DNA of 64,000 nucleotides, taken from positions 2,033,888 to 2,097,887 of the forward strand of contig NZ_CP012544.1 in the NCBI RefSeq assembly GCF_004803815.1. The letters run 5' to 3'. The notes beneath the pieces were generated by a model. It saw only the letters and a program-made list of their open reading frames with translations, was not told the origin of the DNA and ran no database searches. The position numbers and the translations under genes were made by a program. Origin of the DNA: Campylobacter showae. Lineage in GTDB: Bacteria > Campylobacterota > Campylobacteria > Campylobacterales > Campylobacteraceae. Every line of letters starts with the position of its first letter. Position 1 is the stretch's first letter. This document shows positions 2,847-18,591 of this stretch, in pieces.

Positions 2847-3730
2847 CATCAAAACTCCAACGGAGTAAATTTTAACTATATCATGGGTTTCGCTCAAGCT
2901 TTAGCACCGTTTGGTTTCAAACTCCAACGGAGTAAATTTTAACTTTTGGAAGTTTTGGGAAGTTTTAAGATATAGTGGTTTCAAACTCCAACGGAGTAAA
3001 TTTTAACAGCGGCACGTGATAGTTATTAGTATGCTCAAAAACGAGTTTCAAACTCCAACGGAGTAAATTTTAACCCGTACAAGTCCTGGATAGAGGACGT
3101 AAAAGAAAGTTTCAAACTCCAACGGAGTAAATTTTAACGGGAGCTCGGGAGGGGCGGCGTCTTCTTGTTTTAGTTTCAAACTCCAACGGAGTAAATTTTA
3201 ACGGGAGCTCGGGAGGGGCGGCGTCTTCTTGTTTTAGTTTCAAACTCCAACGGAGTAAATTTTAACGCATAGCTCTAGCCGCGCAGGCCGTAGGCAAAAA
3301 CCGTTTCAAACTCCAACGGAGTAAATTTTAACTTTACGAGGACGCGGCGAGCGTAGCGGCTAAGGCATTGTTTCAAACTCCAACGGAGTAAATTTTAACT
3401 ATAACCTGCGGATCTTTGCCCGCGCATCCTGCTAGGTTTCAAACTCCAACGGAGTAAATTTTAACTAGCGCTCTTTCATTTCGCATAGGCCAGCATCGAC
3501 GTTTCAAACTCCAACGGAGTAAATTTTAACACCTATATTATTGTCGCCCTCTTCGTCTTCATAACTGTTTCAAACTCCAACGGAGTAAATTTTAACCCGC
3601 GTCGCTTACTATTGCAGCTCCAGCCGTCAAGCCGTTTCAAACTCCAACGGAGTAAATTTTAACGCGTATCATTGGGGACATCTTCAGGCTCTAAATTCTT
3701 GTTTCAAACTCCAACGGAGTAAATTTTAAC
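2847..3730 (-). CRISPR. Type I-B CRISPR array: 14 repeats of 30 bp, 13 spacers
   Basis: Repeats start at 2847, 2914, 2978, 3045, 3109, 3173, 3237, 3303, 3370, 3436, 3501, 3567, 3634 and 3701. On the plus strand each begins GTTTCAAACTCC and ends GTAAATTTTAAC. The crRNA sense is the minus strand: there the repeat ends TTTGAAAC, a type I-B 5' handle, and has a stem ACTCC/GGAGT with loop GTT. Spacers are 34-37 nt. Spacers 3139-3172 and 3203-3236 are identical. The repeat at 2847 has lost its handle bases (4 of the first 5 plus-strand bases differ), as expected for the oldest, leader-distal repeat. New spacers would enter near 3701-3730, next to the leader. Confidence 0.98.
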
Positions 3731-4097
3731 AGCACCAAAATATACATTTTTAGGACTATAAAAACTCAAAGTCTATATTTTTACGCCTTAAATTTGCATA
3801 AAAAGCAAAATAATATCGATACAAAATGCCCTAAATTTCATCATTTCTAAAATCTTAGAAAAAGCTTTATCGACATGATTTGGATTTAAAAAGGCACTTA
3901 GAAATCAAATATCCCGCCGCAACAAAAGTAAGCTAGCGCCCCCCCAACCCGACACCATACCCAAAGATGCATAAGTCAAATTTGACCGCAAATGAGTAGC
4001 GATTTTTGTGCCGCATTTTAATGAAGTAGCGACACTAAAATCAAATCATCAAAATGCAACCGCGACCTTTTGCTGTCCCTACCGACAAATATCAAAT
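3731..4097 (-). promoter_or_regulatory. CRISPR leader region between cas1 and the array
   Basis: 367 bp without a gene, strongly AT-rich next to the first repeat (3731-3860). It sits where the leader and array promoter must be if the array is read from the minus strand. No consensus promoter can be picked with confidence. TATAGT at about 3759-3764 (minus strand) is a weak -10 candidate. A C7 run lies at 3939-3945. Confidence 0.7.
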
Positions 4098-5096
4098 TTA
4101 CCCCCACCTAAATCCCTCGTAAGGCGCATCTTCGCAGATACATTTTTTGATCTGATTAGCTTCGCGGCGGATCACCTGCCGCCACGTGAGATCGCGCCCG
4201 CCCAGCGAGATCGTTTCGCCAAGCCTTGCGATCATCTTTAGCTCGATCTTTTGCACGGCGTCGTTGCTAAATTTTATCCGCCCGGCGTCGGTTTGAAAGT
4301 CCTTTGCCGTGATCTCTTTTTTATTTAGCATACTAAAAATCAGCGTATCGCCCAAAATCGGCTTAAAAATCTCCGCAAGATCGAGGTGCAGGCTCAACGC
4401 GCGGTAGTTTGGCTCGTGCAAAAAGCCGATGCGCGGATCAAGCTCGGTTTTGTAAATTTCGCTGAGGCAGACGTTATAGATGCGCGTATTTACGTAGCTT
4501 ATGAAGCTGTTGATTTTATCGGCGGGCGGGCGCTTAGAGCGGACGGTAAATTTAAAGCTTTTTTGATCCGCGATTATCTCGTTCCACTTTTCGTAGTATA
4601 ACTTTTGAAACGCCCCTTCTACCGCCATTATCGCAGGCACGTCCGCGGCAGCGTTTAGCGCCTCTATGTGGGGCGAGACGTCAAATTTTACGCCGTGTCT
4701 TTTGCAATTTGCCGCGTCGTTTAGGATGTGCGCACGAGTGATCTCGCGAGCGATGTAGGCGCGCTTAAGCGGATCGTCAAAGGCGCGGACCTGATTTAGT
4801 AGCACAAAGCCGCTTTTATTGACCGAGTTTGAGGTGTTTGGATAAAAGTTCCCGCGAAAGCTCTGATATGGGCTAAAAATGTGCAAAAGGACGTTGTTGT
4901 CCGCCAAAAACGCCATGGTGTAGGTGTCGATCTGCACTTTTGCAAGCACGTAAATTTCATCGATCGCATTTATCGGCAAAATTTTACTAGCGACGACCGC
5001 GCCTGCATCGTCAAATTTATCAAAATAGATATTGTTATCTTGCCTGCGAAGCCTGCCTGCGCTCAAAATAAAATGCGTCCTATCGCTTTTTTGCAT
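4098..5096 (-). CDS. cas1: CRISPR integrase Cas1
   Basis: 332 residues, the usual length for type I-B Cas1, the nuclease/integrase that inserts spacers at the leader end. Hallmarks seen: a beta-rich N-terminus with EIYVLAKVQIDTYTMAFLADNNV, then EGAFQKLYYEKWNE, which carries the catalytic Glu, and GFLHEPNYRALSLHLDLAEIFKP with the catalytic His and acidic residue. RBS AAGGAACAAAG precedes the ATG. It is the last cas gene and its 3' end abuts the leader. Gene order here is cas4-cas2-cas1, whereas cas4-cas1-cas2 is more usual. Confidence 0.97.
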   Translation of the reverse strand: MQKSDRTHFILSAGRLRRQDNNIYFDKFDDAGAVVASKILPINAIDEIYVLAKVQIDTYTMAFLADNNVLLHIFSPYQSFRGNFYPNTSNSVNKSGFVLLNQVRAFDDPLKRAYIAREITRAHILNDAANCKRHGVKFDVSPHIEALNAAADVPAIMAVEGAFQKLYYEKWNEIIADQKSFKFTVRSKRPPADKINSFISYVNTRIYNVCLSEIYKTELDPRIGFLHEPNYRALSLHLDLAEIFKPILGDTLIFSMLNKKEITAKDFQTDAGRIKFSNDAVQKIELKMIARLGETISLGGRDLTWRQVIRREANQIKKCICEDAPYEGFRWG

Positions 5097-5165
5097 CTTT
5101 GTTCCTTAAATTTAGCCGGGATTTTAAGTGTCGCCGTCAAATTCGGCAAATTTACGCGAGCAAAT

Positions 5166-5444
5166 TTAACTAAACAGCGCGCCGCTTTTATCCTGTCCGA
5201 TGACTATACGCTTGGAATACTTCAGCGAATTAAACGTGTAAATCACGATAGAATCAAGCTGCGGGGCGCACTCTTTTTGCAGCATTGTGCTTAGTTTTTT
5301 AAAATCGCTCTCGCGGATTTCGCCTTCAAAAACGGAAAACTGCACTCGCGGCAAAAACTTCTCGACCCCCTTTCTGATGCGGTTTGCGTTGTTTTTCTCT
5401 TTTTGCTCGGCGCCGGCGATGTCGTAAAATAAAATCACGTACAT
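5166..5444 (-). CDS. cas2: CRISPR adaptation protein Cas2
   Basis: 92 residues from the ATG at 5444, giving the canonical Cas2 opening MYVILFYDIAG with the conserved Asp at residue 8 in the ferredoxin-like fold, then FLPRVQFSVFEGEI and SIVIYTF. An in-frame TTG at 5468 would add eight basic residues that no Cas2 needs, so I prefer the ATG. Cas2 is the structural partner of Cas1 in the integrase complex. It lies 11 bp after cas4 and 69 bp before cas1. Confidence 0.95.
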   Translation of the reverse strand: MYVILFYDIAGAEQKEKNNANRIRKGVEKFLPRVQFSVFEGEIRESDFKKLSTMLQKECAPQLDSIVIYTFNSLKYSKRIVIGQDKSGALFS

Positions 5445-5455
5445 TTTTCTAAATT

Positions 5456-5956
5456 TCAACTTGCGCAATATCCGCTATAAGCGCAGTTTGTGCAAAATTT
5501 ACCCTGCGTAAATTTCGGCGGCCGCTCCAGGTTTGTGAGTGCCGTTATCTCGCTTAAAATTTGCTCGATTAGAGCGAAATTTTCGCTGCTATCATCCACC
5601 AAAATCACCTTTTTGCCGCTGATTAATTTGCCTTTTACCTCTTTTAAATTTAAGCCCGTTTTTAAAAGATAGACGTAAAAAAGTAGCTGCATCTTGCCCG
5701 CAAGCTCGTTTTTTAGGCTCTTTTTGTATTCGGTGATGAGATAATGTCCGCGCTGCTTGGAAAGTTTGTCGAATTTTAAATTTGAAAATGCAAAGTCCTG
5801 CAAATTGCTCTCTTTGATCTCCGCTAGCGCCTTGCCCATCAGCACGTTTTCATCCTCCTGATCTGCGTGGATATGGTGAGCGTAAAGCCACGCCTCGCGC
5901 TTACAGGTGACGTAATAATTAACAAGCGTGCCGGTAATTTGGTCTTTGCAAAACAT
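5456..5956 (-). CDS. cas4: CRISPR-associated exonuclease Cas4
   Basis: 166 residues, RecB-family nuclease that trims and orients prespacers. C18 and the C-terminal trio C155, C158 and C164 (CTNCAYSGYC) are the four Fe-S ligands. The nuclease E-x-K signature is visible in LITEYKKS. Its start codon shares one base with the cas3 stop (TAATG), so the genes are coupled. Assignment is firm. Confidence 0.95.
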   Translation of the reverse strand: MFCKDQITGTLVNYYVTCKREAWLYAHHIHADQEDENVLMGKALAEIKESNLQDFAFSNLKFDKLSKQRGHYLITEYKKSLKNELAGKMQLLFYVYLLKTGLNLKEVKGKLISGKKVILVDDSSENFALIEQILSEITALTNLERPPKFTQGKFCTNCAYSGYCAS

Positions 5957-8154
5957 TAGTCAAATACCTCATCCGTGATGTCCAAATTCGTATCTTTTTT
6001 AAGCCCGTAATCCGTGCTATAAAAATAAGACGAGCCAAACGGCAGATAAAACATATCCTTTAGTCCGCGTATTTGCCTTAAATTGGGCGTCAATTTCTCT
6101 TTATCTTTAAACGTTACGTTTATGCTAAATTTCGATAACTTTCTGATGTGATTTTTTAAAATATCTCGTATCGTAAATTCGTTATTTTGGCTATTTTTAA
6201 TTTCGATAATCTTAGCTTCAAAATCCTTGATAAAATTTTCTTCGGGCTCGATTATTAGCGTTTGTTTGCAGTTATCGTTCATAATTTCTTCGATTTTTTG
6301 GTTTATATTTTCGAATTCTAGCTTTTTTATCTCGCTTTGTATATATAAATTTTCCAGTTGATCGCTGATTTTCTGAAAATACAAATTTGAAATTTCTAAA
6401 ATTTCACTCTCTCGCACCTCTCTTTGTTTGAAAATTTCTAAAATCGCTTTGCTTACTTTCTGCAAATCGCCATAAATCAAATTTGTAAATTTACTTATTT
6501 CGGCAAAGACGTATAGCTCGCCACAAATTTCTCCAAAATGCCTATTTACGCGCCCTGCGGTCTGTATGATCGAGCTAATGGGCGCAACTTCGCGAAATCC
6601 AACGTCAAAATCAAGATCCACTCCCGCCTCGATAGACTGCGTGGAAATTAGTAAAATTTTACTTGCAAGCGGATCGTCTTTATTTGTATTTATTGCACAC
6701 CTTACCGCTTCGATAGTAGCGCGTTTGTGATCATCATACATATATCCGTTTAGGCAAAAGCAGCTAAATTTATCTCTTAGTTTTACGAACAGCTCCTGTG
6801 CTTTTTTGATCGTATTGACGACGACGAGGGTATTTTTATCTCTTGCGGTTTCGCAAATTTTCTCTAAAAGCCCCTCTTCGCCGCTTATATCAAGCCATTT
6901 TATAACGTATCTATCCTGCCTTGAAAAATACTCTAAATTTGAAATTTCTTTAAAATTTTCGCTTTTAATAACCGGCATCGTCGCCGACATAAATATAAAA
7001 ATAGTGCCGAGCCGCTGCGAGATGATCTCGCAAAGCAGGATAAAATCTTTTCTAAAATTATATGGGATTGCTTGCGCCTCGTCGATGATAACGACGCTAT
7101 TTTTGAGCTGATTAAATTTGACGTTGTCTTTGTTTTTATTGCCAAATAGCGCAAATATAAGCTGATAAAGCGTAGTTACGTTTATCTCGCCGCTAAAAGA
7201 TTCCATCAAAAATTTGATCTTAGAGTACCTATCATCTTCGGTCAGATTTTTTTCGTCTATCGTCGTTTTGTGGTGAGCCTTGCCAACCGAAATATCGCTA
7301 TTTTTATAAATTTTCGCAATTATATCGTAGGTTTGATCGATTATCGAAGTAAAAGGAAGCGCATAAATTATGCGAGATTTATTAAATTTTAGGGCAAAAT
7401 TTAGAGCAGTCAAGGTCTTGCCGTATCCAGTCGGCGCGGTCAAAGTAAAAAGTTTGTAATTTTCGTCAAAATTGTTTAAAACAAAATTTCTAAACTCATC
7501 TCGCTTTTTATTCGGCGGTAATGTTTTGATATCGCTCTCTAAAACATCTACCGGTATATCTTTGGTTTCCTGTTTTGGCATGCTAAAGATAGCCTCAAAT
7601 TTATCGCTATAAACCAAATTTGAGTATAGGCTTTTGAAATTTATGAAATCCTCATAAGTAAATTTGTGTTTATACTGCAATAAAATTAAGTATTGACGAA
7701 GCTTTTCCGCTCTATCTAAAAACTCATCCTTTTTTGTAGATAATCCCGAATAAACCTGGGTATTTTTAGCGGCGTTAACTACTTCTTCCCAATATTCTAG
7801 CTCTTTTAAATTTTTAAAAAATTTATTAGCATCTCGAGCTAATGTCATTAAATTTACGGCATCGCCGTGGTGCGAAACGATGGCAAGAAAGCCAAACAGA
7901 GTCGGTATTTCATCAAATTTGGAGTTTAGCAAGAAAAAATATGCCGACAGAAATGAGTGGTTTTTATCCAGCTTGTCGTTTGAGGTGTCTCTGATGTAAA
8001 TTTGAAAATTATTTTTTAGTTTTGCGATATCGTGATAGAGCTTGACCTGCTTATCCAGCTCTTCATCGCCGGCAGAGATCATATTTTTTATATGATTTTC
8101 TAAAAGTTTATTTGGATGAGACCAAAACTCGTCAAATAAAATAGACTCTTTCAT
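5956..8154 (-). CDS. cas3: CRISPR helicase-nuclease Cas3 (HD + DExH)
   Basis: 732 residues, the effector that Cascade recruits to unwind and degrade target DNA. The N-terminal HD nuclease shows YHDIAK (H41-D42) and SHHGD near residue 93. The SF2 helicase follows: Walker A TAPTGYGKT near 241, DEAQ box VVIIDEAQAIP near 355, SATMP motif III, and motif VI IIQTAGRVNRHFG. All key residues appear intact, so the enzyme is probably active. The ATG lies inside the 3' end of cas5 (23-bp overlap). Confidence 0.97.
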   Translation of the reverse strand: MKESILFDEFWSHPNKLLENHIKNMISAGDEELDKQVKLYHDIAKLKNNFQIYIRDTSNDKLDKNHSFLSAYFFLLNSKFDEIPTLFGFLAIVSHHGDAVNLMTLARDANKFFKNLKELEYWEEVVNAAKNTQVYSGLSTKKDEFLDRAEKLRQYLILLQYKHKFTYEDFINFKSLYSNLVYSDKFEAIFSMPKQETKDIPVDVLESDIKTLPPNKKRDEFRNFVLNNFDENYKLFTLTAPTGYGKTLTALNFALKFNKSRIIYALPFTSIIDQTYDIIAKIYKNSDISVGKAHHKTTIDEKNLTEDDRYSKIKFLMESFSGEINVTTLYQLIFALFGNKNKDNVKFNQLKNSVVIIDEAQAIPYNFRKDFILLCEIISQRLGTIFIFMSATMPVIKSENFKEISNLEYFSRQDRYVIKWLDISGEEGLLEKICETARDKNTLVVVNTIKKAQELFVKLRDKFSCFCLNGYMYDDHKRATIEAVRCAINTNKDDPLASKILLISTQSIEAGVDLDFDVGFREVAPISSIIQTAGRVNRHFGEICGELYVFAEISKFTNLIYGDLQKVSKAILEIFKQREVRESEILEISNLYFQKISDQLENLYIQSEIKKLEFENINQKIEEIMNDNCKQTLIIEPEENFIKDFEAKIIEIKNSQNNEFTIRDILKNHIRKLSKFSINVTFKDKEKLTPNLRQIRGLKDMFYLPFGSSYFYSTDYGLKKDTNLDITDEVFD

Positions 8155-8842
8155 CGTTTATCTGATATATATTTCCATGGTTTTTAGATTTTATAGCTTC
8201 TTTGCCGTTTATTTCCATTACAAAGTCTTTAAAATCTTTAAAAATTCGCCCATTTTCGCAGTCGCAAGGCATTCTAACCGTAGTTAATTTCGCATTTTCA
8301 TTAATACCATCAAAAACAAAATCTTCCATAAGCGTAAATGTATCTATAAAACTTTCGTCTTGAGCTATTTTTTCACATATTTCTATATAGATCCAGCTAA
8401 AATCGGCTATGCAAAAGTTTATCCCAAGATACGGCGTAAAGGCAGTTTTGTGCTCTTTTAAATTTGAAATTATCTTATCCCGGTAGCTTTGCTCTAAATT
8501 CTCTAAATTTAAAAATACGACATAAGACGGCGAGCAGATGAGCTCTCTGTAAAACTGCTTTTTCTCCTTGGCGTTTTGATAGCCTTCCTCTATGTGCATA
8601 TTGCTTGAGAGGGCAAATTTTATGCCGTTAAAAACAAAACTCTTTTTTAAAATTTGCCTATCTATTTTTACGCTGTATTTGATGCTAGATAGCTTAAAAT
8701 ACTCCTCCTCGCCTATAACGGCGCCTAAAAAGCCCATTATAGCGGTCTTTGGCGGCACCGGATAGGTTAAGCTAGAATAAATCGTTGCCGGATGCGAAAA
8801 ATGAGCGTAATCGCCGAATAATCTAAAAGCAATAATGCTCAT
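8132..8842 (-). CDS. cas5b: Cascade subunit Cas5 (type I-B)
   Basis: 236 residues. The N-terminal RAMP region AFRLFGDYAHFSHPATIYSSLTYPVPPKTAIMGFLGA is the classic Cas5 signature. Cas5 caps the 5' handle of the crRNA in Cascade. One base separates it from the cas7 stop and its 3' end overlaps cas3, consistent with a single polycistronic unit. Confidence 0.95.
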   Translation of the reverse strand: MSIIAFRLFGDYAHFSHPATIYSSLTYPVPPKTAIMGFLGAVIGEEEYFKLSSIKYSVKIDRQILKKSFVFNGIKFALSSNMHIEEGYQNAKEKKQFYRELICSPSYVVFLNLENLEQSYRDKIISNLKEHKTAFTPYLGINFCIADFSWIYIEICEKIAQDESFIDTFTLMEDFVFDGINENAKLTTVRMPCDCENGRIFKDFKDFVMEINGKEAIKSKNHGNIYQINDERVYFI

Positions 8843-8843
8843 T

Positions 8844-9785
8844 TTACGCCTCTATCTTTTTCCAACTACTATCAAAATTTTCTTTGTTTATCGCTTCAAA
8901 ATCATAATCGCTCATATACTCTATTTTTTCTATATTTGCGGCATATCTTGTGAGTTTATTTTTTAAATTTGTAAAGTCGATAGTGTATTCGTTGATACTT
9001 CTTATCGCTCTATCTTCTTTTTCGCTTTTTAGGCTTATACTATTGTTTAGATCGCCCGCAAACGTATCGTCTTTATACGTGATGATTAGCATAAACCTTG
9101 GAGTCTGGCCGATTTTGGAGCGAGTCGTTAAGTTTTTAGTACCGTGCCACAAAGCTTTTAAAATTTTAGCTTCATCGGCTTCATTAAAGCCCGTTTTTGC
9201 CGCATTATAATTATCGATAATGCCGTAAGTAGCGAAAATAGCGTATCTTAAAAATTTTTCCTCTCTAAAAGTCGCCTGCGCACTTTGTTTTTTTTCAATA
9301 TTTGGATCATAATCGCTAGCAAAAGCGCCCTTGCCTTTTACATACTCTATCTCTACTTTATTTAAAGATTTACTTAGTCTAAACTGTACCGGCCCTGTAA
9401 ACTGAACGCCAGCGGTTTTTATCTCTTTGTCTTGTTTTTTTTCGTCTCTATCCGAAATAGGCAACACGCCGCCAAATGCGCGAATATCGATAAATTTAGA
9501 CAAAATTTCTTTTTGCAGTTCGCTTTTGCTTTGTTTTATGTTTATGCTTTGTCTGATCGCCGTTTTAGCATCTAGTACGACGTCTTCTATCCTATACTCC
9601 TTTATAAAAATCGACGCCTCGTCTTTTTTCATAATCTCGTCTCTGATAGTTCTTTTTATGCGCACATCCGTCACCTCGGCTATGCCGGTTTCATCATCGC
9701 ATCTTGGAGCGTTATCCTTTAGCATGTCGCCGTTTGGATTCCAATTCTCTCCGTCCCACAAAAAAAGTATCTCTTTTTTCTGCAT
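8844..9785 (-). CDS. cas7b: Cascade backbone Cas7 (Csh2-type)
   Basis: 313 residues. The opening EILFLWDGENWNPNGD and TDVRIKRTIRD are typical of Csh2/Cas7b, and GPVQFRLSKSLNKVEI plus the later LWHGTKNLTTRSKIGQTPRFM region complete the RRM-like fold and thumb. It forms the helical backbone along the crRNA. RBS AAGGAG lies upstream of the ATG and it follows cas8b by 14 bp. Confidence 0.96.
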   Translation of the reverse strand: MQKKEILFLWDGENWNPNGDMLKDNAPRCDDETGIAEVTDVRIKRTIRDEIMKKDEASIFIKEYRIEDVVLDAKTAIRQSINIKQSKSELQKEILSKFIDIRAFGGVLPISDRDEKKQDKEIKTAGVQFTGPVQFRLSKSLNKVEIEYVKGKGAFASDYDPNIEKKQSAQATFREEKFLRYAIFATYGIIDNYNAAKTGFNEADEAKILKALWHGTKNLTTRSKIGQTPRFMLIITYKDDTFAGDLNNSISLKSEKEDRAIRSINEYTIDFTNLKNKLTRYAANIEKIEYMSDYDFEAINKENFDSSWKKIEA

Positions 9786-9799
9786 ATTATTCTCCTTAC

Positions 9800-11566
9800 T
9801 TATTTCGTTTTATCTTTTAAAAATTTGCGATAATCACTCCCGCCCATAGCAAAAGCAAGCGTAGTATGAGAGCTTTTTACTATCTTGCTTTCTTTAAAAA
9901 AGACTTGCGGTAAAATTTCAATCAAACACTCTTTTATATTTTCAACATTTGGATTTGGTTTGCCGGAAGCTGCCTTAAGCTTTCTAATCATCTCATCGCA
10001 CTTAGTCCAAATTCGCTCCAAATTTTCCCTGCTTATCGAGCCGCAGTTATCAAGCCAGTTGCTAAACGATACGCCGCCATTAACGCCGAGCTGCCAGTTT
10101 ATCAGAGCTGCGCTTAGCATGCCTAGTAAATAAGCGCTTGCAAGCGCGTCATCTTGATTTAAAAATTCGCTATTTTTGGTTAGCTCTCTAATCAGTTCTT
10201 TTTTATCGATTAAATTTTCCAAATCGCACTCCTTTTGAAACACTAGTTTTTTATTTAACACGTCGATCTCATTAAAAAAATTCTGATATTTTTTAATAAC
10301 ATCAATCGTTCTTTGCCTGTAAAAATCGTTAAAATATTTACCCCACTCTAATTTCTCCGCATAGTCCTTATTGGCGCTACCATAGCAAATCAAATCGCTA
10401 TATCTTTCTATCATAATCTCTAAATCAAATTTATTTCGCGACAGTAAAAAGCTCATCACGCTTAGCCTATCTTCAAACAAATTTTGAAGATATATCGTCT
10501 CATCGGTTCCGCTGTTTTTTTCATAGAAAGCTTTAATATCAAAATTGCCCATTAAATTTGAAATTTTAGAGATAAAAGAGGGCAAAACGTCATCTATCGC
10601 AAGCTTTAAATCGATAGCTGCGTTGCTTTGCGTATAAAATAAAATCGTATTTAAAACCGGTAAATTTTCCTGTTTTTTAGCAGCGATCTCAAGATAATCA
10701 TTTATGCTAAATTTTATAACTTCTTCGGCCATCTCAATATTTTTCATATCACTTTTTGAAGTTTCTTCTAGTATTTTTATAATCTCTTCTAGATTTACCG
10801 AGCTACCCAAAATCGTCGGTAAAATCGCCATTTTCATACCGTAAAAATTGTGCGATAGCTTATCTTTTATCGCTTTAAAGCCGTTTTCTACCTTTTTTGC
10901 GCTAACGGCGCTTAGCGGCAAAAGTTTTGACTTGATAAATTGCATATTAGCAGGCATCTCATTTACCGAGCAAAATGCTAAATTTGCATCGCCGCCTATA
11001 CCTTTTTCATTTGTCAAAATATCGTATCCATAGGACGATTTTTGCTCTTTTACGCTGATACGATTTTCAAAAATTTGTTTAAAATAGGCAGAAACGGGCT
11101 TGCCCTTGTATGAGAGCGAGAAAAAAGTAGCGACTTTTTTGCCTTTTTCCTTTTTTAGCTCATCAAGACCTTTGATCTCATCTATAATATCGGCAAAATA
11201 TCCTTCATTTATACTAGGTAACATAGATAAAATAGCGTCTTTTTCTATATCGCTCGGCTCAAAACACGAGAGCAAATTTGAAACCGATCTCAAAACGCCT
11301 TTTATAAATTTAGCTTCGTCTTTATTTGCTTCTTTGGATAAAAATTGAGAATTTGGAAAAAGATTACCGGAATTTGCGCCTACGCCAAATCTACATATTA
11401 TCAGATCGTCTTTGCTTATGTTTAAATTCGGCTCTATTCGCTTGGTTTCTATGTCGCAGAGATATACTTTGATTGTATCGTATTTGTAGGCATCGTTTTT
11501 GAGACGCTTTTCATCTTTTTGATATATTTCGCCTATGTCGGCGAAAATCTTAACTATATCACCCAA
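9800..11566 (-). CDS. cas8b: Cascade large subunit Cas8b (Csh1-type)
   Basis: 588 residues. Cas8b recognises the PAM and recruits Cas3. The Csh1 family is divergent; I recognise it from length, position and fragments such as LIICRFGVGANSGNLFPNSQF and AYLLGMLSAALINWQ. The start is a TTG at 11566 preceded by AAAGGGAA at optimal spacing, and no ATG competes nearby. A promoter TTGATT-N17-TATAAT (11599-11627) lies just upstream. It begins the cas8b-7-5-3-4-2-1 operon. cas6 is separate. Confidence 0.9.
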   Translation of the reverse strand: MGDIVKIFADIGEIYQKDEKRLKNDAYKYDTIKVYLCDIETKRIEPNLNISKDDLIICRFGVGANSGNLFPNSQFLSKEANKDEAKFIKGVLRSVSNLLSCFEPSDIEKDAILSMLPSINEGYFADIIDEIKGLDELKKEKGKKVATFFSLSYKGKPVSAYFKQIFENRISVKEQKSSYGYDILTNEKGIGGDANLAFCSVNEMPANMQFIKSKLLPLSAVSAKKVENGFKAIKDKLSHNFYGMKMAILPTILGSSVNLEEIIKILEETSKSDMKNIEMAEEVIKFSINDYLEIAAKKQENLPVLNTILFYTQSNAAIDLKLAIDDVLPSFISKISNLMGNFDIKAFYEKNSGTDETIYLQNLFEDRLSVMSFLLSRNKFDLEIMIERYSDLICYGSANKDYAEKLEWGKYFNDFYRQRTIDVIKKYQNFFNEIDVLNKKLVFQKECDLENLIDKKELIRELTKNSEFLNQDDALASAYLLGMLSAALINWQLGVNGGVSFSNWLDNCGSISRENLERIWTKCDEMIRKLKAASGKPNPNVENIKECLIEILPQVFFKESKIVKSSHTTLAFAMGGSDYRKFLKDKTK

Positions 11567-11598
11567 AATATTCCCTTTGCTAAATATTTATTAGCAAA

Positions 11599-11627
11599 AT
11601 TATAATACTTTTTAAAGATTAAATCAA
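11599..11627 (-). promoter_or_regulatory. Sigma-70 promoter of the cas8b operon
   Basis: -35 TTGATT (11622-11627) and -10 TATAAT (11599-11604) on the minus strand with 17 bp between them. The -35 starts immediately after the stop codon of the 55-residue ORF. The cas operon therefore has its own promoter and does not depend on the upstream one. Confidence 0.75.
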
Positions 11628-11786
11628 GTATTTATAAACAAAAAATATGATAAGAAATAGGGTTGACGCTTTAAAAATATTTAAAGTAATACTAATTTTA
11701 GTTTCTTTATATCTACGTCCGATTTCGTCAAAGAAGCTTTTATTTACTATTTCGATCTCGGTTGAAAACTTGTGAACATTTTTCAT
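11619..11786 (-). CDS. Small protein with C-terminal hydrophobic segment; candidate CreT-type toxin
   Basis: 55 residues from ATG 11786, preceded by a purine-rich AAGAAGAAGAA. The N-terminal half is charged (MKNVHKFSTEIEIVNKSF...) and the last 15 or so residues (STLFLIIFFVYKYLI) could insert in a membrane. A longer 90-codon frame exists but its 5' part runs through the -10/-35 boxes at 11817-11845, so it is not all transcribed. No family recognised. Its near-consensus promoter carries a match to an adjacent crRNA-like RNA. Position between cas6 and cas8b equals that of creT in Haloarcula type I-B. The toxin role is inference, and the toxic product could be the RNA rather than the peptide. Confidence 0.55.
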   Translation of the reverse strand: MKNVHKFSTEIEIVNKSFFDEIGRRYKETKISITLNIFKASTLFLIIFFVYKYLI

Positions 11787-11816
11787 ATTTCTTCTTCTTA
11801 TAAATAAGTTCTTGAA

Positions 11817-11845
11817 AGTATATAGAAAAAAGAATATTTTGTCAA
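11817..11845 (-). promoter_or_regulatory. Near-consensus sigma-70 promoter of the 55-residue ORF
   Basis: -35 TTGACA (11840-11845, perfect consensus) and -10 TATACT (11817-11822), spacer 17 bp, minus strand. This is unusually strong for a campylobacterotan, where -35 boxes are generally poor. Transcription would start near 11810 and reach the ATG after about 24 nt. Confidence 0.8.
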
Positions 11846-11848
11846 TAG

Positions 11849-11880
11849 TTATGTTATTTAAATTATTAAAGATATCTTGC
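11849..11880 (+). promoter_or_regulatory. Protospacer-like target of the crRNA-like RNA
   Basis: From 11852 the plus strand reads TGTTATTTAAATTATT. It matches the spacer-like sequence at 11945-11960 at 15 of 16 positions, the only mismatch being position 12. With a two-base gap the match continues through ATATCTTGC. The 5'-adjacent trinucleotide TTA (11849-11851) would be the PAM. The site lies 3 bp from the -35 of the small ORF promoter, so bound Cascade would occlude RNA polymerase. Confidence 0.7.
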
Positions 11881-11905
11881 ATATACAGCAAAATTACACT
11901 ATAAT
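11877..11905 (+). promoter_or_regulatory. Promoter of the crRNA-like RNA
   Basis: -35 TTGCAT (11877-11882), 17 bp spacer, -10 TATAAT (11900-11905), plus strand, divergent from the small ORF promoter. The predicted start at about 11911-11913 falls two to four bases before the degenerate repeat at 11915, which is what a dedicated crRNA-like gene would need. Confidence 0.65.
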
Positions 11906-11909
11906 ATTC

Positions 11910-11977
11910 TTAAGGGCAAGACTTCCTCCGTTGGAGTTTTAAACTGTTATTTAAAATATTGCATATCTTGCCCTTAA
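11910..11977. repeat. 12-bp perfect inverted repeat enclosing the repeat/spacer-like unit
   Basis: TTAAGGGCAAGA (11910-11921) pairs with TCTTGCCCTTAA (11966-11977) across 44 bp. The arms bracket almost the whole crRNA-like unit and overlap the cas6 stop codon (11974-11976). It could end cas6 transcription on the minus strand and/or fix the 3' end of the plus-strand RNA. Confidence 0.8.
11911..11977 (+). ncRNA. crRNA-like RNA with degenerate CRISPR repeat (candidate CreA antitoxin/CreR)
   Basis: 11915-11944 aligns ungapped to the crRNA-sense array repeat with 24 of 30 identities. The hairpin core CTCCGTTGGAG and most of the handle (TTTTAAAC versus TTTGAAAC) are kept. A spacer-like stretch follows from 11945. 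At 11972-11986 a second repeat-like half (11 of 15 identities to the repeat start) overlaps the cas6 3' end, giving a 27-nt spacer, shorter than the 34-37 nt in the array. Cas6 could process it and Cascade could load it. The 3' end is uncertain. Confidence 0.65.
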
Positions 11978-12657
11978 ATTTCCTCCACCACCTCCACAAA
12001 CCCCGCTCCGCAGTTCATACATCCGCTTCCGACACCGGCGTCAAGGATCAAATTTATCAGCTCCGGTTGCGCGCAAATTTTCCATTTCGCTTGCCAAGCT
12101 TGAACCGGCGAGCGATTGTTGCCGTAATAAAAATTAAATGGATTTTGCAAATTTTGCCAGAGCAAATTTAGCTCGAATTCTCCGTCGTATCTGCGCCCGG
12201 TAAGAGTTTCAAATCTTTGCAGCGCGTTTGTTTTCATCATCTCAAGATGCCTGGAGTCTTGCGGCTGCAGATAAATTTTATGCCCCAAAAGCCCGCCTAT
12301 AGCGCATGCTACGCAGCCTTGTAACACCGCTTCGCTTTGCGAGGTTCTGTGTTCGCTAACAGCCACCGTCGTATCGCACAGGCAAAGCTCACCCAAGCTT
12401 AACCCGTCTTTTAGCACGGCAAGCGCGATTATTTTTTCAAATTCCGACTCATATGAGGTAAATCTAATCCGCAAATTTGCGCCATTTAAACGAAAATCAA
12501 AATTCGTTCGTTTAAAAATTTTGCCGCTCGGCTCGTGCCTGTACCCATCGTGCTCGGCGCTTGGCAGATAGCGGTAGATGTAGCCCTGGATGAGCTGAGG
12601 CAATGCCCTTGATATTTTTAAATTTGCGCTCGGCAAACGTGAGATTATTATGAGCAT
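11974..12657 (-). CDS. cas6: CRISPR pre-crRNA endoribonuclease Cas6
   Basis: 227 residues. The decisive feature is the C-terminal Gly-rich RAMP loop GVGSGCMNCGAGFV, followed by EVVEEI at the end. The N-terminal RNA-binding fold includes IQGYIYRYLP and histidines H35 and H41 that could serve catalysis. Cas6 cuts pre-crRNA within the repeat. RBS AAGGAT precedes the ATG. It is separated from cas8b by about 400 bp with other transcription units inside, so it is expressed independently. Confidence 0.9.
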   Translation of the reverse strand: MLIIISRLPSANLKISRALPQLIQGYIYRYLPSAEHDGYRHEPSGKIFKRTNFDFRLNGANLRIRFTSYESEFEKIIALAVLKDGLSLGELCLCDTTVAVSEHRTSQSEAVLQGCVACAIGGLLGHKIYLQPQDSRHLEMMKTNALQRFETLTGRRYDGEFELNLLWQNLQNPFNFYYGNNRSPVQAWQAKWKICAQPELINLILDAGVGSGCMNCGAGFVEVVEEI

Positions 12658-12690
12658 TTTTATCCTTAAATTTAGTAAATTTTAGACGTA

Positions 12691-12696
12691 ATTATA
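12691..12696 (-). promoter_or_regulatory. -10 box of cas6
   Basis: TATAAT on the minus strand about 34 bp upstream of the cas6 ATG. No good -35 is present, which is common in this phylum. Confidence 0.5.
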
Positions 12697-12802
12697 AAAA
12701 ATCTCGCATTAAAAATCGGTTTTGCGCAAAAATGCGGCGAAATTTCAAATTTTACCCGTCAAATTCGCTAAAATATCCGCAAAAATCACGCAAGGAGAGC
12801 AA

Positions 12803-13975
12803 ATGAAATACGATTTTGACGCGCCTGTAGAGCGAGGCGGGACGTATTCGTCAAAATGGAAAACAATCGGCGACGAGCTACCGATGTGGGTGGCGGATAT
12901 GGATTTTAAGGTCGCGCCAGAAATTTTAGAAGCGCTGCAAAAGCGTCTAGACAACGGAGTTTTTGGCTACTCATACGTGCCGCGGGAGTGGAGCGAGGCC
13001 ATTTGCTCATGGTGGAGCAGACGACACGACGTCAAATTTGACCCAAATTGGCTGATTTTTTGCACGGGCGTGATACCGATCATTAGCTCTGCGGTGCGCA
13101 AATTTACGAGCGTGGGCGATAAAATCGTGATCCAAAGCCCCGTCTATCACGTCTTTTACCGCAGTATCGAAAACAACGGCAGGGTCGCGCTCACAAACGA
13201 GCTAGCCTACGACGGGCGCGGCTATGATATTGATTTTAAGGACCTCGAAGAAAAGCTCGCTGATCCGCTAACGACGATGTTTATCCTTTGCAACCCGCAC
13301 AATCCCGTCGGCAAAATTTGGAGCGCCCAGAAGCTAGCCAAAATCGGCGAACTATGCGCTAAACACGGCGTTTTGGTGATATCTGACGAGATACACTGCG
13401 ACATCACGAGCCCCGGCAAAAGCTACGTGCCCTTTATCCGCGCGAGCGAAACTTGCAAAAACATCTCGATCACCTGCGTTTCGCCGACTAAAGCCTTTAA
13501 CATCGCAGGCCTGCAAAGCTCCGCCGCCGTGGTGCCAAACCCAAAACTGCGCGCCAAAATGGCAAAAGCCATCAACGACGACGAGGTCGGCGAGGGCAAT
13601 GCGTTTTCTTGTATCGCGGCGATCGCGGCGTTTGAGCGGGGAGAAGCGTGGCTCGAGCAGATGCGCGAATACATAGAGCAAAACCGCAAAATCGTAAGCG
13701 AGTTTTTGCAAAACGAACTGCCGCAGATTAGGCTTGTAGAGCAGGACGCCACGTATCTGCTCTGGCTTGACTGCCGCGAAATTTGCGACGACGCGAGCGA
13801 TTTTCATAAGTTTTTACGCCAAAAAGCGGGGCTTTGGCTAAACGACGGCAACGCGTATAGAGGTGCCGAGAAGTGCTTCCTGCGCCTTAACATCGCCACG
13901 CAAAGATCGCGCGTGCTGGAGGGGCTAAAACGCCTAAAATCAGGCGCTCTAGCCTACGTAAAAAGCAGGGAATAA
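12803..13975 (+). CDS. PLP-dependent C-S lyase/aminotransferase, MalY/PatB family
   Basis: 390 residues from ATG 12803, chosen for the RBS AAGGAGAGCAA just upstream; the frame opens 27 codons earlier without one. Fold-type I aminotransferase: LPMWVADMDFKVAPEI at the start, NPHNPVGK, ISDEIHCD with the PLP-binding Asp, and SPTKAFNIAGL with the Schiff-base Lys. MalY/PatB proteins cleave cystathionine or cysteine to pyruvate, ammonia and a thiol or sulfide. In oral bacteria this is a source of hydrogen sulfide. The exact substrate is inference. It is divergent from cas6 and unrelated to CRISPR. Confidence 0.9.
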   Translation: MKYDFDAPVERGGTYSSKWKTIGDELPMWVADMDFKVAPEILEALQKRLDNGVFGYSYVPREWSEAICSWWSRRHDVKFDPNWLIFCTGVIPIISSAVRKFTSVGDKIVIQSPVYHVFYRSIENNGRVALTNELAYDGRGYDIDFKDLEEKLADPLTTMFILCNPHNPVGKIWSAQKLAKIGELCAKHGVLVISDEIHCDITSPGKSYVPFIRASETCKNISITCVSPTKAFNIAGLQSSAAVVPNPKLRAKMAKAINDDEVGEGNAFSCIAAIAAFERGEAWLEQMREYIEQNRKIVSEFLQNELPQIRLVEQDATYLLWLDCREICDDASDFHKFLRQKAGLWLNDGNAYRGAEKCFLRLNIATQRSRVLEGLKRLKSGALAYVKSRE

Positions 13976-14016
13976 TATATTTACGAAAAATTGGGATAAA
14001 ATTTAGACCTTTTTGG

Positions 14017-14090
14017 TATGATTTGCGCGTCCGACAAGAAAACCTCCTTTTTGTAACGGCGCCTCGGCTCCCCCTGCCGAGGCGTTTTTG
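14017..14090 (+). ncRNA. Candidate small RNA with C/U-rich loops ending in an intrinsic terminator
   Basis: Between the C-S lyase stop and moaC. A possible -10 TATGAT lies at about 14017-14022. Then comes a short weak hairpin presenting ACCTCC and a strong hairpin whose loop is TCCCCCT. Two exposed C/U-rich, Shine-Dalgarno-complementary motifs are typical of regulatory sRNAs such as RepG of Helicobacter, which pairs with G-rich leaders. It could equally be just the lyase terminator. Confidence 0.4.
14061..14089 (+). terminator. Strong intrinsic terminator
   Basis: Perfect 8-bp GC stem GCCTCGGC (14061-14068) with GCCGAGGC (14076-14083), a 7-base loop, then G and five T. Confidence 0.85.
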
Positions 14091-14189
14091 TCTTATTCAT
14101 TAAGCTTTTTTAGTTATAATCCTTCTCATAAATTTACCCTGCCTAACTCAAATTTAAGCAAATTTAGCGTTTCAGGCGAAAGGACGAAA

Positions 14190-14663
14190 ATGCTAACTCA
14201 CATAGACGAAAACAACCGCCCAAAAATGGTCGACGTAAGCGACAAGGGCGCAACTACGCGCATAGCCGTAGCAAGCGGCATCATAAAAATGTCGCGCGAA
14301 GCCTTTGACGCGATCAAAAACAACACCGGCAAAAAGGGCCCGGTTTTGCAAACCGCCGTCATAGGCGCGATAATGGGTGCGAAAAAGACGAGCGAACTCA
14401 TCCCGATGTGCCACCCGCTGCTAATTAGCAGCATAAACTGCGACATCGAGGAGCTAACCGAAATCTGTGCCTACAAGCTAACCGTTAGCGTCAAGATAGA
14501 CGGCAAAACGGGCGTAGAGATGGAGGCGCTAACAGGCGTTAGCGTCGGGCTACTAACGATTTACGATATGATAAAAGCGATAGATAAAACCATGCAGATA
14601 ACAGATATCACGCTAGAAAGCAAGAGCGGAGGCAAAAGTGGCGACTATGTGCGATCTAAATAA
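14190..14663 (+). CDS. moaC: Cyclic pyranopterin monophosphate synthase MoaC
   Basis: 157 residues from ATG 14190, chosen because AAAGGACGAAA precedes it; an upstream in-frame ATG at 14088 lacks an RBS and overlaps the terminator. MoaC completes the first step of molybdenum cofactor synthesis with MoaA. Diagnostic stretches: [41 protein letters not shown], and [20 protein letters not shown]. Its end overlaps the next gene by 26 bp, suggesting an operon. Confidence 0.96.
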
Positions 14664-17922: not shown

Positions 17923-18591
17923 ATGAAAAAGACGGTAATAACACTATGCGCGTTTGCGATCACTGCGGCGTTTGGGCTCTCTAACGAGGATTACGATAAA
18001 TTTATAGTGCTAGATGATAGCGGAAAATACAAAGAAGCGTTGGCATTTATCAAGCCAAAGGCCGATAGCGGCGATGCTAGAGCCGTCACGCTCGTAGGCT
18101 ACCTATACGAGGTGAGGATGTCTAACATCGGCGAAGGCGTAAAGTGGTACAAAAAAGCCATGGGACTAAATGATTCGCTCGCTCACTCGAATATGGCGCG
18201 GATCTATTACCGCATGACGGACTATAAACTAGCCGCGCAGACCCTTGAAAAGGCAAGCAAACTAGGCGACACGGGCGCGGACGCAACGCTAGGAAATATG
18301 TATCTAAACGGAATACACTTTAAAAAAGACTATAAAAAAGCGCTCGTCTACATCCAAATAGGAAATATGTATCTAAACGGAATACACTTTAAAAAAGACT
18401 ATAAAAAAGCGCTCGTCTACATCCAAAAAGGCGTTGCCGATGACGATCCTCAGGCTCTAACCGATCTAGCTATATGCTACGAGAACAGCTACGGCGTCGC
18501 AAGGGATATGGATAAAGCCATAGAGTTCTACAAACGCGGAGCGGCGCAAGGTAACGAATACGCCAAAAGAGCGCTAGAGAGGTTGCAGTAG
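17923..18591 (+). CDS. Secreted Sel1/TPR-repeat protein with internal tandem duplication
   Basis: 222 residues with a signal peptide (MKKTVITLCAFAITAAFG). Sel1-like repeats are seen in GEGVKWYKKAM, DYKKALVYIQKGV and DMDKAIEFYKRGAAQGN. Such solenoids mediate protein contacts in the periplasm. Residues about 124-169 contain two nearly identical 23-residue units beginning GNMYLNGIHFKKDYKKALVY, encoded by a 69-bp direct duplication (18292-18360 and 18361-18429). A 23-residue period does not fit the roughly 36-residue Sel1 unit, so the duplication probably disturbs the solenoid. Confidence 0.8.
   Translation: MKKTVITLCAFAITAAFGLSNEDYDKFIVLDDSGKYKEALAFIKPKADSGDARAVTLVGYLYEVRMSNIGEGVKWYKKAMGLNDSLAHSNMARIYYRMTDYKLAAQTLEKASKLGDTGADATLGNMYLNGIHFKKDYKKALVYIQIGNMYLNGIHFKKDYKKALVYIQKGVADDDPQALTDLAICYENSYGVARDMDKAIEFYKRGAAQGNEYAKRALERLQ

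Follow-up and report, generated by a model that had tools for sequence, protein, structure and literature searches.

A predicted Cascade-controlled small membrane ORF between cas6 and cas8b in Campylobacter showae and some of its relatives

The interval between cas6 and cas8b in the type I-B CRISPR-Cas locus of Campylobacter showae probably (at roughly 60%) encodes a module in which Cascade, loaded with a guide RNA, silences a 55-codon open reading frame (ORF), likely a membrane toxin, through a TTA-flanked seed site beside the predicted promoter of the ORF. The ORF is best read as a small membrane toxin under Cascade repression, similar to CreTA and CrePA. At the level of sequence, the 24 loci compared show co-variation of guide, target and PAM, and the slot of another species holds a homologue of the ORF that is kept as a protein. 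Repression of the ORF would follow by analogy with the CreTA mechanism, while toxicity is suggested by the size of the ORF, its predicted membrane helix, its linkage to CRISPR, the turnover of the cargo and a MazF-like gene in a homologous slot. The module most likely guards a toxin in this genome, this being one of two alternative states of the locus in related species.

The guide RNA gene in the window

The window, the whole 64,000-nt stretch of DNA analysed, belongs to a genome of 2.1 Mb, and all positions given here refer to it. It carries a type I-B locus in the order cas6, interval, cas8b, cas7, cas5, cas3, cas4, cas2, cas1 and CRISPR array, with all the cas genes on the minus strand; cas4, cas2 and cas1 are named by position and appearance. 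The type I-B gene set cas6–cas8b–cas7–cas5–cas3 is present. The cas6 gene (11974–12657) matches Cas_Cas6_C (PF01881, E 2.1e-9) and cas8b (9800–11566) matches PF09484 (E 5.1e-19) and PADLOC Cas8b. The other Cascade genes are cas7 (8844–9785; NCBIfam Csh2, E 8.6e-69) and cas5 (8132–8842; Cas5h, E 3.7e-19, under the cut-off of that model). Among named organisms, Campylobacter showae CC57C and two C. concisus strains stand nearest by Cas8b.

The array (2847–3730) consists of 14 repeats, with the crRNA sense on the minus strand. Two adjacent repeat-spacer units at 3109–3236, of 64 nt each, are identical and represent a duplicated spacer, and the repeat at 2847 is degenerate, fitting the far end of the array. 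Elsewhere in the window, an exact 69-nt tandem duplication (18290–18427) lies within a 222-codon ORF (17923–18591), which we take to resemble a Sel1-type repeat protein. An Rfam scan of positions 3000–14200, with E values up to 1, returned a single match, below the gathering score and outside the cas6–cas8b interval.

The guide RNA gene is encoded on the plus strand. Its predicted promoter, TTGCAT-17-TATAAT (11877–11905), was read from the sequence, with the TATAAT box (11900–11905) upstream of a degenerate repeat; the promoter is missing from the promoter-scan list because its weak −35 box (11877–11882) scores 3/6, below the cut-off. The degenerate repeat (11926–11944) comprises a hairpin (11926–11936) and the 8-nt handle TTTTAAAC (11937–11944), and 18 of its last 19 nucleotides are identical to the array repeat. 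A crRNA-like gene with a degenerate repeat outside the array is a property of both CreTA and CrePA. The sequence-only reading had proposed such a gene with its own promoter: the repeat is borne out, and the predicted promoter has a weak −35 box.

The guide, or psi-spacer, runs from 11945 to 11965, up to a closing helix. The element is enclosed by a 12-bp inverted repeat, a feature absent from the sequence-only reading, whose 5´ arm (11910–11921) lies close to where the guide RNA is predicted to begin and whose 3´ arm (11966–11977), also on the plus strand, overlaps the stop codon of cas6. The predicted fold of the window RNA (−21.8 kcal/mol, z −4.76) contains this closing helix and also pairs the guide with the handle.

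Guide, target and PAM across related loci

The matched part of the guide target, or operator, occupies 11852–11867 on the plus strand (a full protospacer would extend to about 11887) and is preceded by TTA at 11849–11851. Of the first 17 guide positions, 15 (1–11 and 13–16) match the target, and an equally good match at the 15 scored positions was reached in 0.1% of 2000 dinucleotide shuffles of this locus. A PAM-plus-seed search of the 2.1-Mb genome gave a single site, at window position 11849.

The element was sought in relatives through their Cas proteins. Cas8b was found in 10 of the 48 genomes of the genus and in 18 of 153 in the family, and Cas6 in 26 of the 153. The combined searches gave 27 genomes, of which 22 carry the element and three do not (G046, G006 and G070); the other two (G136 and G137), with weak Cas6 matches, were set aside. 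Across the wider order, a sample of 398 genomes from a larger group contained 33 with Cas6. Outside the family, the loci of 21 of 24 Cas6 genomes were inspected, leaving out G189, G156, G371 and the second Cas6 matches in G291, G479 and G202, and three carry the element (G228, G229 and G273); G158 offered too little sequence for judging it. The resulting 25 elements (22 from the window's family, three from two further families of the order) have a common design: a degenerate repeat, an 8-nt handle, a short guide and a helix joining the RNA ends.

Some loci depart from this picture. One Campylobacter cas8b without the element and without an adjacent cas6 (G046, locus L015) has an upstream short ORF resembling a helix-turn-helix regulator. 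Beside cas6 in G174 (L138), a promoter-like TATAAT is followed by a hairpin-rich stretch (CACCATCAATGGTG) with complementary outer ends, unlike the described elements, which may be another RNA gene.

Targets were found for 24 of the 25 elements. The sole element without one (G065, L053) lies in a locus with stop codons in both cas8b and cas6, where the guide element and the closing helix are kept and the target is gone. Guide positions 1–5 and 7–11 match the target in 239 of 240 cells, against 21 of 48 for positions 6 and 12, a pattern favoured by the picking of targets without positions 6 and 12; when all 17 positions were weighted equally, the same site was chosen in 22 of the 24 loci, with a tie in G035 and G040. 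From position 1 to position 12, the matches are 24, 24, 24, 24, 24, 12, 24, 23, 24, 24, 24 and 9 (each of 24), and the guides comprise 20 distinct 11-mers. TTA precedes every one of the 24 targets, and the trinucleotide played no part in target choice.

The PAM of the array spacers was estimated separately. The joined spacers of G028 (1375 nt), searched against the 48 genomes of the genus, gave 30 loci, which were scanned with the spacers of seven genomes; five of these yielded 69 sites for 41 spacers, after removal of sites preceded by a repeat end. TTA stands before 56 of the 69 sites, a count that keeps a few which are probably not true protospacers (e.g., L104, the array region of G028 itself), and is the commonest trinucleotide for 30 of the 41 spacers. 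Since TTA is the PAM of both the guide targets and the array spacers, the window module is, on sequence comparison, a real Cascade guide. Complementarity at positions 1–5 and 7–11 beside the PAM of the system, as in CreTA and CrePA, is found in the window. Guide and target co-vary across species, the opposite of what the sequence-only reading had named as evidence against it; the comparison of loci gives strong support to its RNA-guide part (crRNA-like gene, target, PAM and position between cas6 and cas8b).

The same search revealed that array spacers of the C. concisus group match many sites in related genomes, often several per stretch (L105–L133), which are probably prophages; these matches are material for PAM and escape studies.

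The closing helix also recurs. Each of the 25 elements has an inverted repeat pairing its 5´ end with a stretch that starts at guide position 15–25, with a mean uninterrupted Watson–Crick length of 10.1 bp. Dinucleotide shuffling, run 300 times for each locus, gave 5.5 bp on average and no mean above 6.1, and pairing the arms of one locus with those of another gave a mean of 5.9 bp; there are 19 distinct 5´ arms. Taken alone, the helix is without significance in G022, G050, G069 and G132 (p 0.053–0.28). We infer that it takes the place of the second repeat found in other CreA RNAs and restricts how much of the guide can be used.

The small ORF and the cargo slot

On the minus strand, the operator adjoins the predicted promoter of the small ORF (TTGACA-17-TATACT, 11817–11845), an arrangement shared with CreTA and CrePA. 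With 11/12 matches it is near consensus, as expected from the claim of a strong promoter facing the ORF. The 55-codon ORF (11619–11786, minus strand), a predicted single-helix membrane protein, is followed by a promoter-like site for cas8b (TTGATT-17-TATAAT, 11599–11627, minus strand; 10/12 matches), so that the separate cas8b promoter claimed by the sequence-only reading also holds as a prediction. The scanned stretch contains eight promoter-like sites, where shuffles have 3.0 on average (sd 1.6), and the same scan gave no terminator-like site in the interval, including between the 55-codon ORF and cas8b. In 19 of the 21 family loci with a target, the best −35 box for the outgoing promoter, sought in the immediate neighbourhood of the target alone, lies 4–7 nt from the target start (TTA included); the outgoing promoter reaches 8/12 or less in four loci (G022, G032, G041 and G045), in two of which the −35 box is 10 nt away.

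The structural model of the window ORF is one helix (residues 2–54; pLDDT 79, from four sequences). The ORF has a homologue at the same place in G003 (BLASTP E 5e-8), and seven proteins at 92–100% identity were found in the protein database, to which a two-locus profile adds P0008, at 36%. Pfam and NCBIfam searches of the small ORFs produced sub-threshold matches only, and no match to KilA-N, the domain of CrePA as first described, was obtained for the window ORF. PADLOC, run on the window ORF and on one ORF each of two further families described below (B and C), gave one weak match (E 0.0065, family C).

Eight of the 24 loci, the window included, carry a short ORF between the operator and the cas8-side gene. 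These ORFs fall into three unrelated families, conserved as proteins between loci, and a hydrophobic 17-residue stretch was found in every one tested (both of A, all three of B, and G229 of C). Family A comprises the window and G003, 55 codons each (ungapped similarity p 1e-5 versus half-wise shuffles). Identical bases number 23, 35 and 23 of 55 at codon positions 1, 2 and 3, second positions being the most conserved, and pS of 0.73 with pN of 0.47 indicates weak constraint. Family B (G014, G026 and G038; 45 codons), with no candidate in the protein database, gives pS 0.84 and pN 0.235 for G026 versus G038, and three nonsynonymous and no synonymous changes for G014 versus G026. Family C (G228, G229 and G273; 36–37 codons) gives pS 0.47 and pN 0.047 for G229 versus G273. 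Purely neutral ORFs were considered and rejected on codon-position conservation.

Behind the family C ORF comes a PemK/MazF-like gene, which exceeds the PF02452 cut-off in G229 and G228 and was assigned by eye only in G273; among solved structures, its relatives are mRNA interferases, at E 0.0035 or weaker. The small ORF precedes the MazF-like gene and need therefore not be the toxin there. The order in G228 is cas6, element, small ORF, MazF-like gene, cas8b, cas7 and cas5 (cas8b and cas5 by look); the contigs of G229 and G273, which break off soon after the slot, yielded no cas7. In G150 (L047), whose guide and target agree at 17/17 positions, a longer leader precedes cas8b and contains very short frames, e.g., MKNRTKVIAVWLK; it is possibly an RNA-type or very small toxin.

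At E values of 1e-3 or better, a threshold that leaves out many weaker listings, family A occurs in 2 of 153 genomes, B in 3 of 153 and C in 3 of 398, each beside cas6. In the Cas6 tree, G035 (no cargo), G038 (family B) and the window (family A) form one supported group with short branches, and two changes are needed for B, two for A and one for C, which suggests that cargo has been exchanged between loci. A broader proposal can be built on this, for which we hold the odds to be even: the cas6–cas8 interval in the order would be a Cascade-controlled cargo slot, served by a single-repeat guide closed by a co-varying helix. Toxin cassettes (two unrelated membrane-peptide families and a third paired with a MazF-type RNase) would be exchanged in it, and sister species would switch between autoregulation and CRISPR addiction.

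In the preferred reading, Cas6 would cut the guide RNA 8 nt before the guide and Cascade would bind the operator with its PAM side beside the −35 box of the ORF promoter. Its distal side might lie over the −35 box of the guide gene, which a full-length protospacer reaches in the window, and the guide would thus likely be self-limiting. Base pairing stops at about position 16, close to where the RNA enters the closing helix, so neither a full R-loop nor Cas3 cutting would be likely. Loss of Cascade, or its block by an anti-CRISPR, would lead to expression of the ORF and a stop in growth. Such a module likely originated from a CreR-type cas8b autoregulator, with a toxin cassette inserted between operator and cas8b, and without a terminator after the ORF, read-through could make it partly CreR.

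The absence of recognised cargo in 16 of the 24 loci, which is the CreR layout (the leader of G150 being longer and the next gene in G032 not identified), raises the alternative that the guide serves chiefly to autoregulate cas8b and the genes downstream of it, the small ORF being a harmless read-through leader. The lack of a terminator-like site after the ORF agrees with this, as does the H. hispanica cas6–cas8 interval, which also drives cas8 according to PMC9458426. We regard it as unlikely: another species keeps a homologue of the ORF at the protein level, the slot is filled elsewhere by unrelated short ORFs or by a MazF-like gene, and cas8b is preceded by its own promoter-like site. In CreR no toxin gene intervenes, whereas the 55-codon ORF and the second promoter-like site do so in the window. 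The sequence-only reading had preferred CreTA, with CreR as the main alternative; most relatives fit the latter, the window is among the eight with a conserved small ORF behind the operator, and that ORF is a putative toxin.

The ORF could also encode a non-toxic membrane protein that assists CRISPR immunity and is subject to the feedback acting on cas8b, since it occurs only beside cas6 at E values of 1e-3 or better and has a predicted membrane helix. This is improbable, however, for a protein that is missing from 16 of 24 related loci, in a slot where unrelated families replace one another and three loci hold a MazF-like gene. Less probable still is a toxic transcript rather than a toxic peptide, as in CreT proper: the CreT of haloarchaea and Acinetobacter are described as RNAs (PMC8501985, PMC10097628), but families A, B and C show conservation at the protein level, to which the comparison of G014 with G026 adds nothing. 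Chance similarity or a functionless simple duplication can be dismissed, since short matches are frequent in an AT-rich interval but the co-variation contradicts it, the 16 target-bearing loci of the shuffle comparison all have p values between 0 and 0.011, TTA precedes all the targets, and the only locus whose cas8b and cas6 are both broken has no target.

The preferred reading of a Cascade-repressed toxin carries its own counterweights, namely the weak −35 box of the guide gene, the weak constraint on family A, the changes between G014 and G026 and the absence of a terminator-like site. If it is true, a CRISPR-guarded toxin module is placed in Campylobacter, and loss or blocking of Cascade has a built-in cost in these strains, whose cells would depend on their CRISPR system. 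Both layouts occur among close relatives, which could allow evolution between cas autoregulation and CRISPR addiction, and the common guide design, the measured PAM and the three cargo families make the transition from CreR to CreTA testable.

Comparison with known systems

A literature search combining CreTA and Campylobacter returned no paper on the combination, as judged by title. The haloarchaeal CreTA, as described in PMC8501985 and PMC9458426, is likewise of type I-B; in H. hispanica the module is situated between cas6 and cas8, the pairing covers positions 1–5 and 7–11 beside the PAM, and the promoters of guide and toxin adjoin. These seed positions were tested by mutation, according to PMC8501985. 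In contrast, the PAM there is TTC and here TTA, the cargo there is a tRNA-trapping RNA and here protein-like, and a second repeat there is replaced here by a helix joining both RNA ends, with relatives in the CreR state. The likeness to H. hispanica drawn by the sequence-only reading thus survives in layout and position and fails in the cargo, which looks like a protein gene here, where CreT of H. hispanica is an RNA toxin.

The CreTA of Citrobacter rodentium, described in PMC12055562, shares a short ORF (96 bp there), a strong promoter, a guide on the opposite strand and a target beside the PAM, and differs in being of type I-E and lying between cas3 and casA. Its toxicity requires translation, according to that paper, which qualifies the statement of the sequence-only reading that this small membrane-like ORF had no known characterised example. 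The same source reports no homology of the C. rodentium ORF to any annotated sequence, and it is likened to the window ORF by description, not by sequence.

CrePA, as reviewed in PMC12737573, also couples a protein toxin with repression by Cascade and a crRNA-like antitoxin, but CreP is a KilA-N domain protein, whereas short membrane ORFs and a MazF-like gene are found here. CreR, in the descriptions of PMC12737573, PMC13131331 and PMC12948488, resembles the 16 relatives whose guide is directed against a site at the presumed cas8 promoter; the window differs, as the promoter at its operator first drives a separate ORF and cas8b has its own promoter-like site. Set against the known systems as described in the sources cited here, the new parts would be the proposed exchangeable cargo slot and the helix that closes the ends of the guide RNA.
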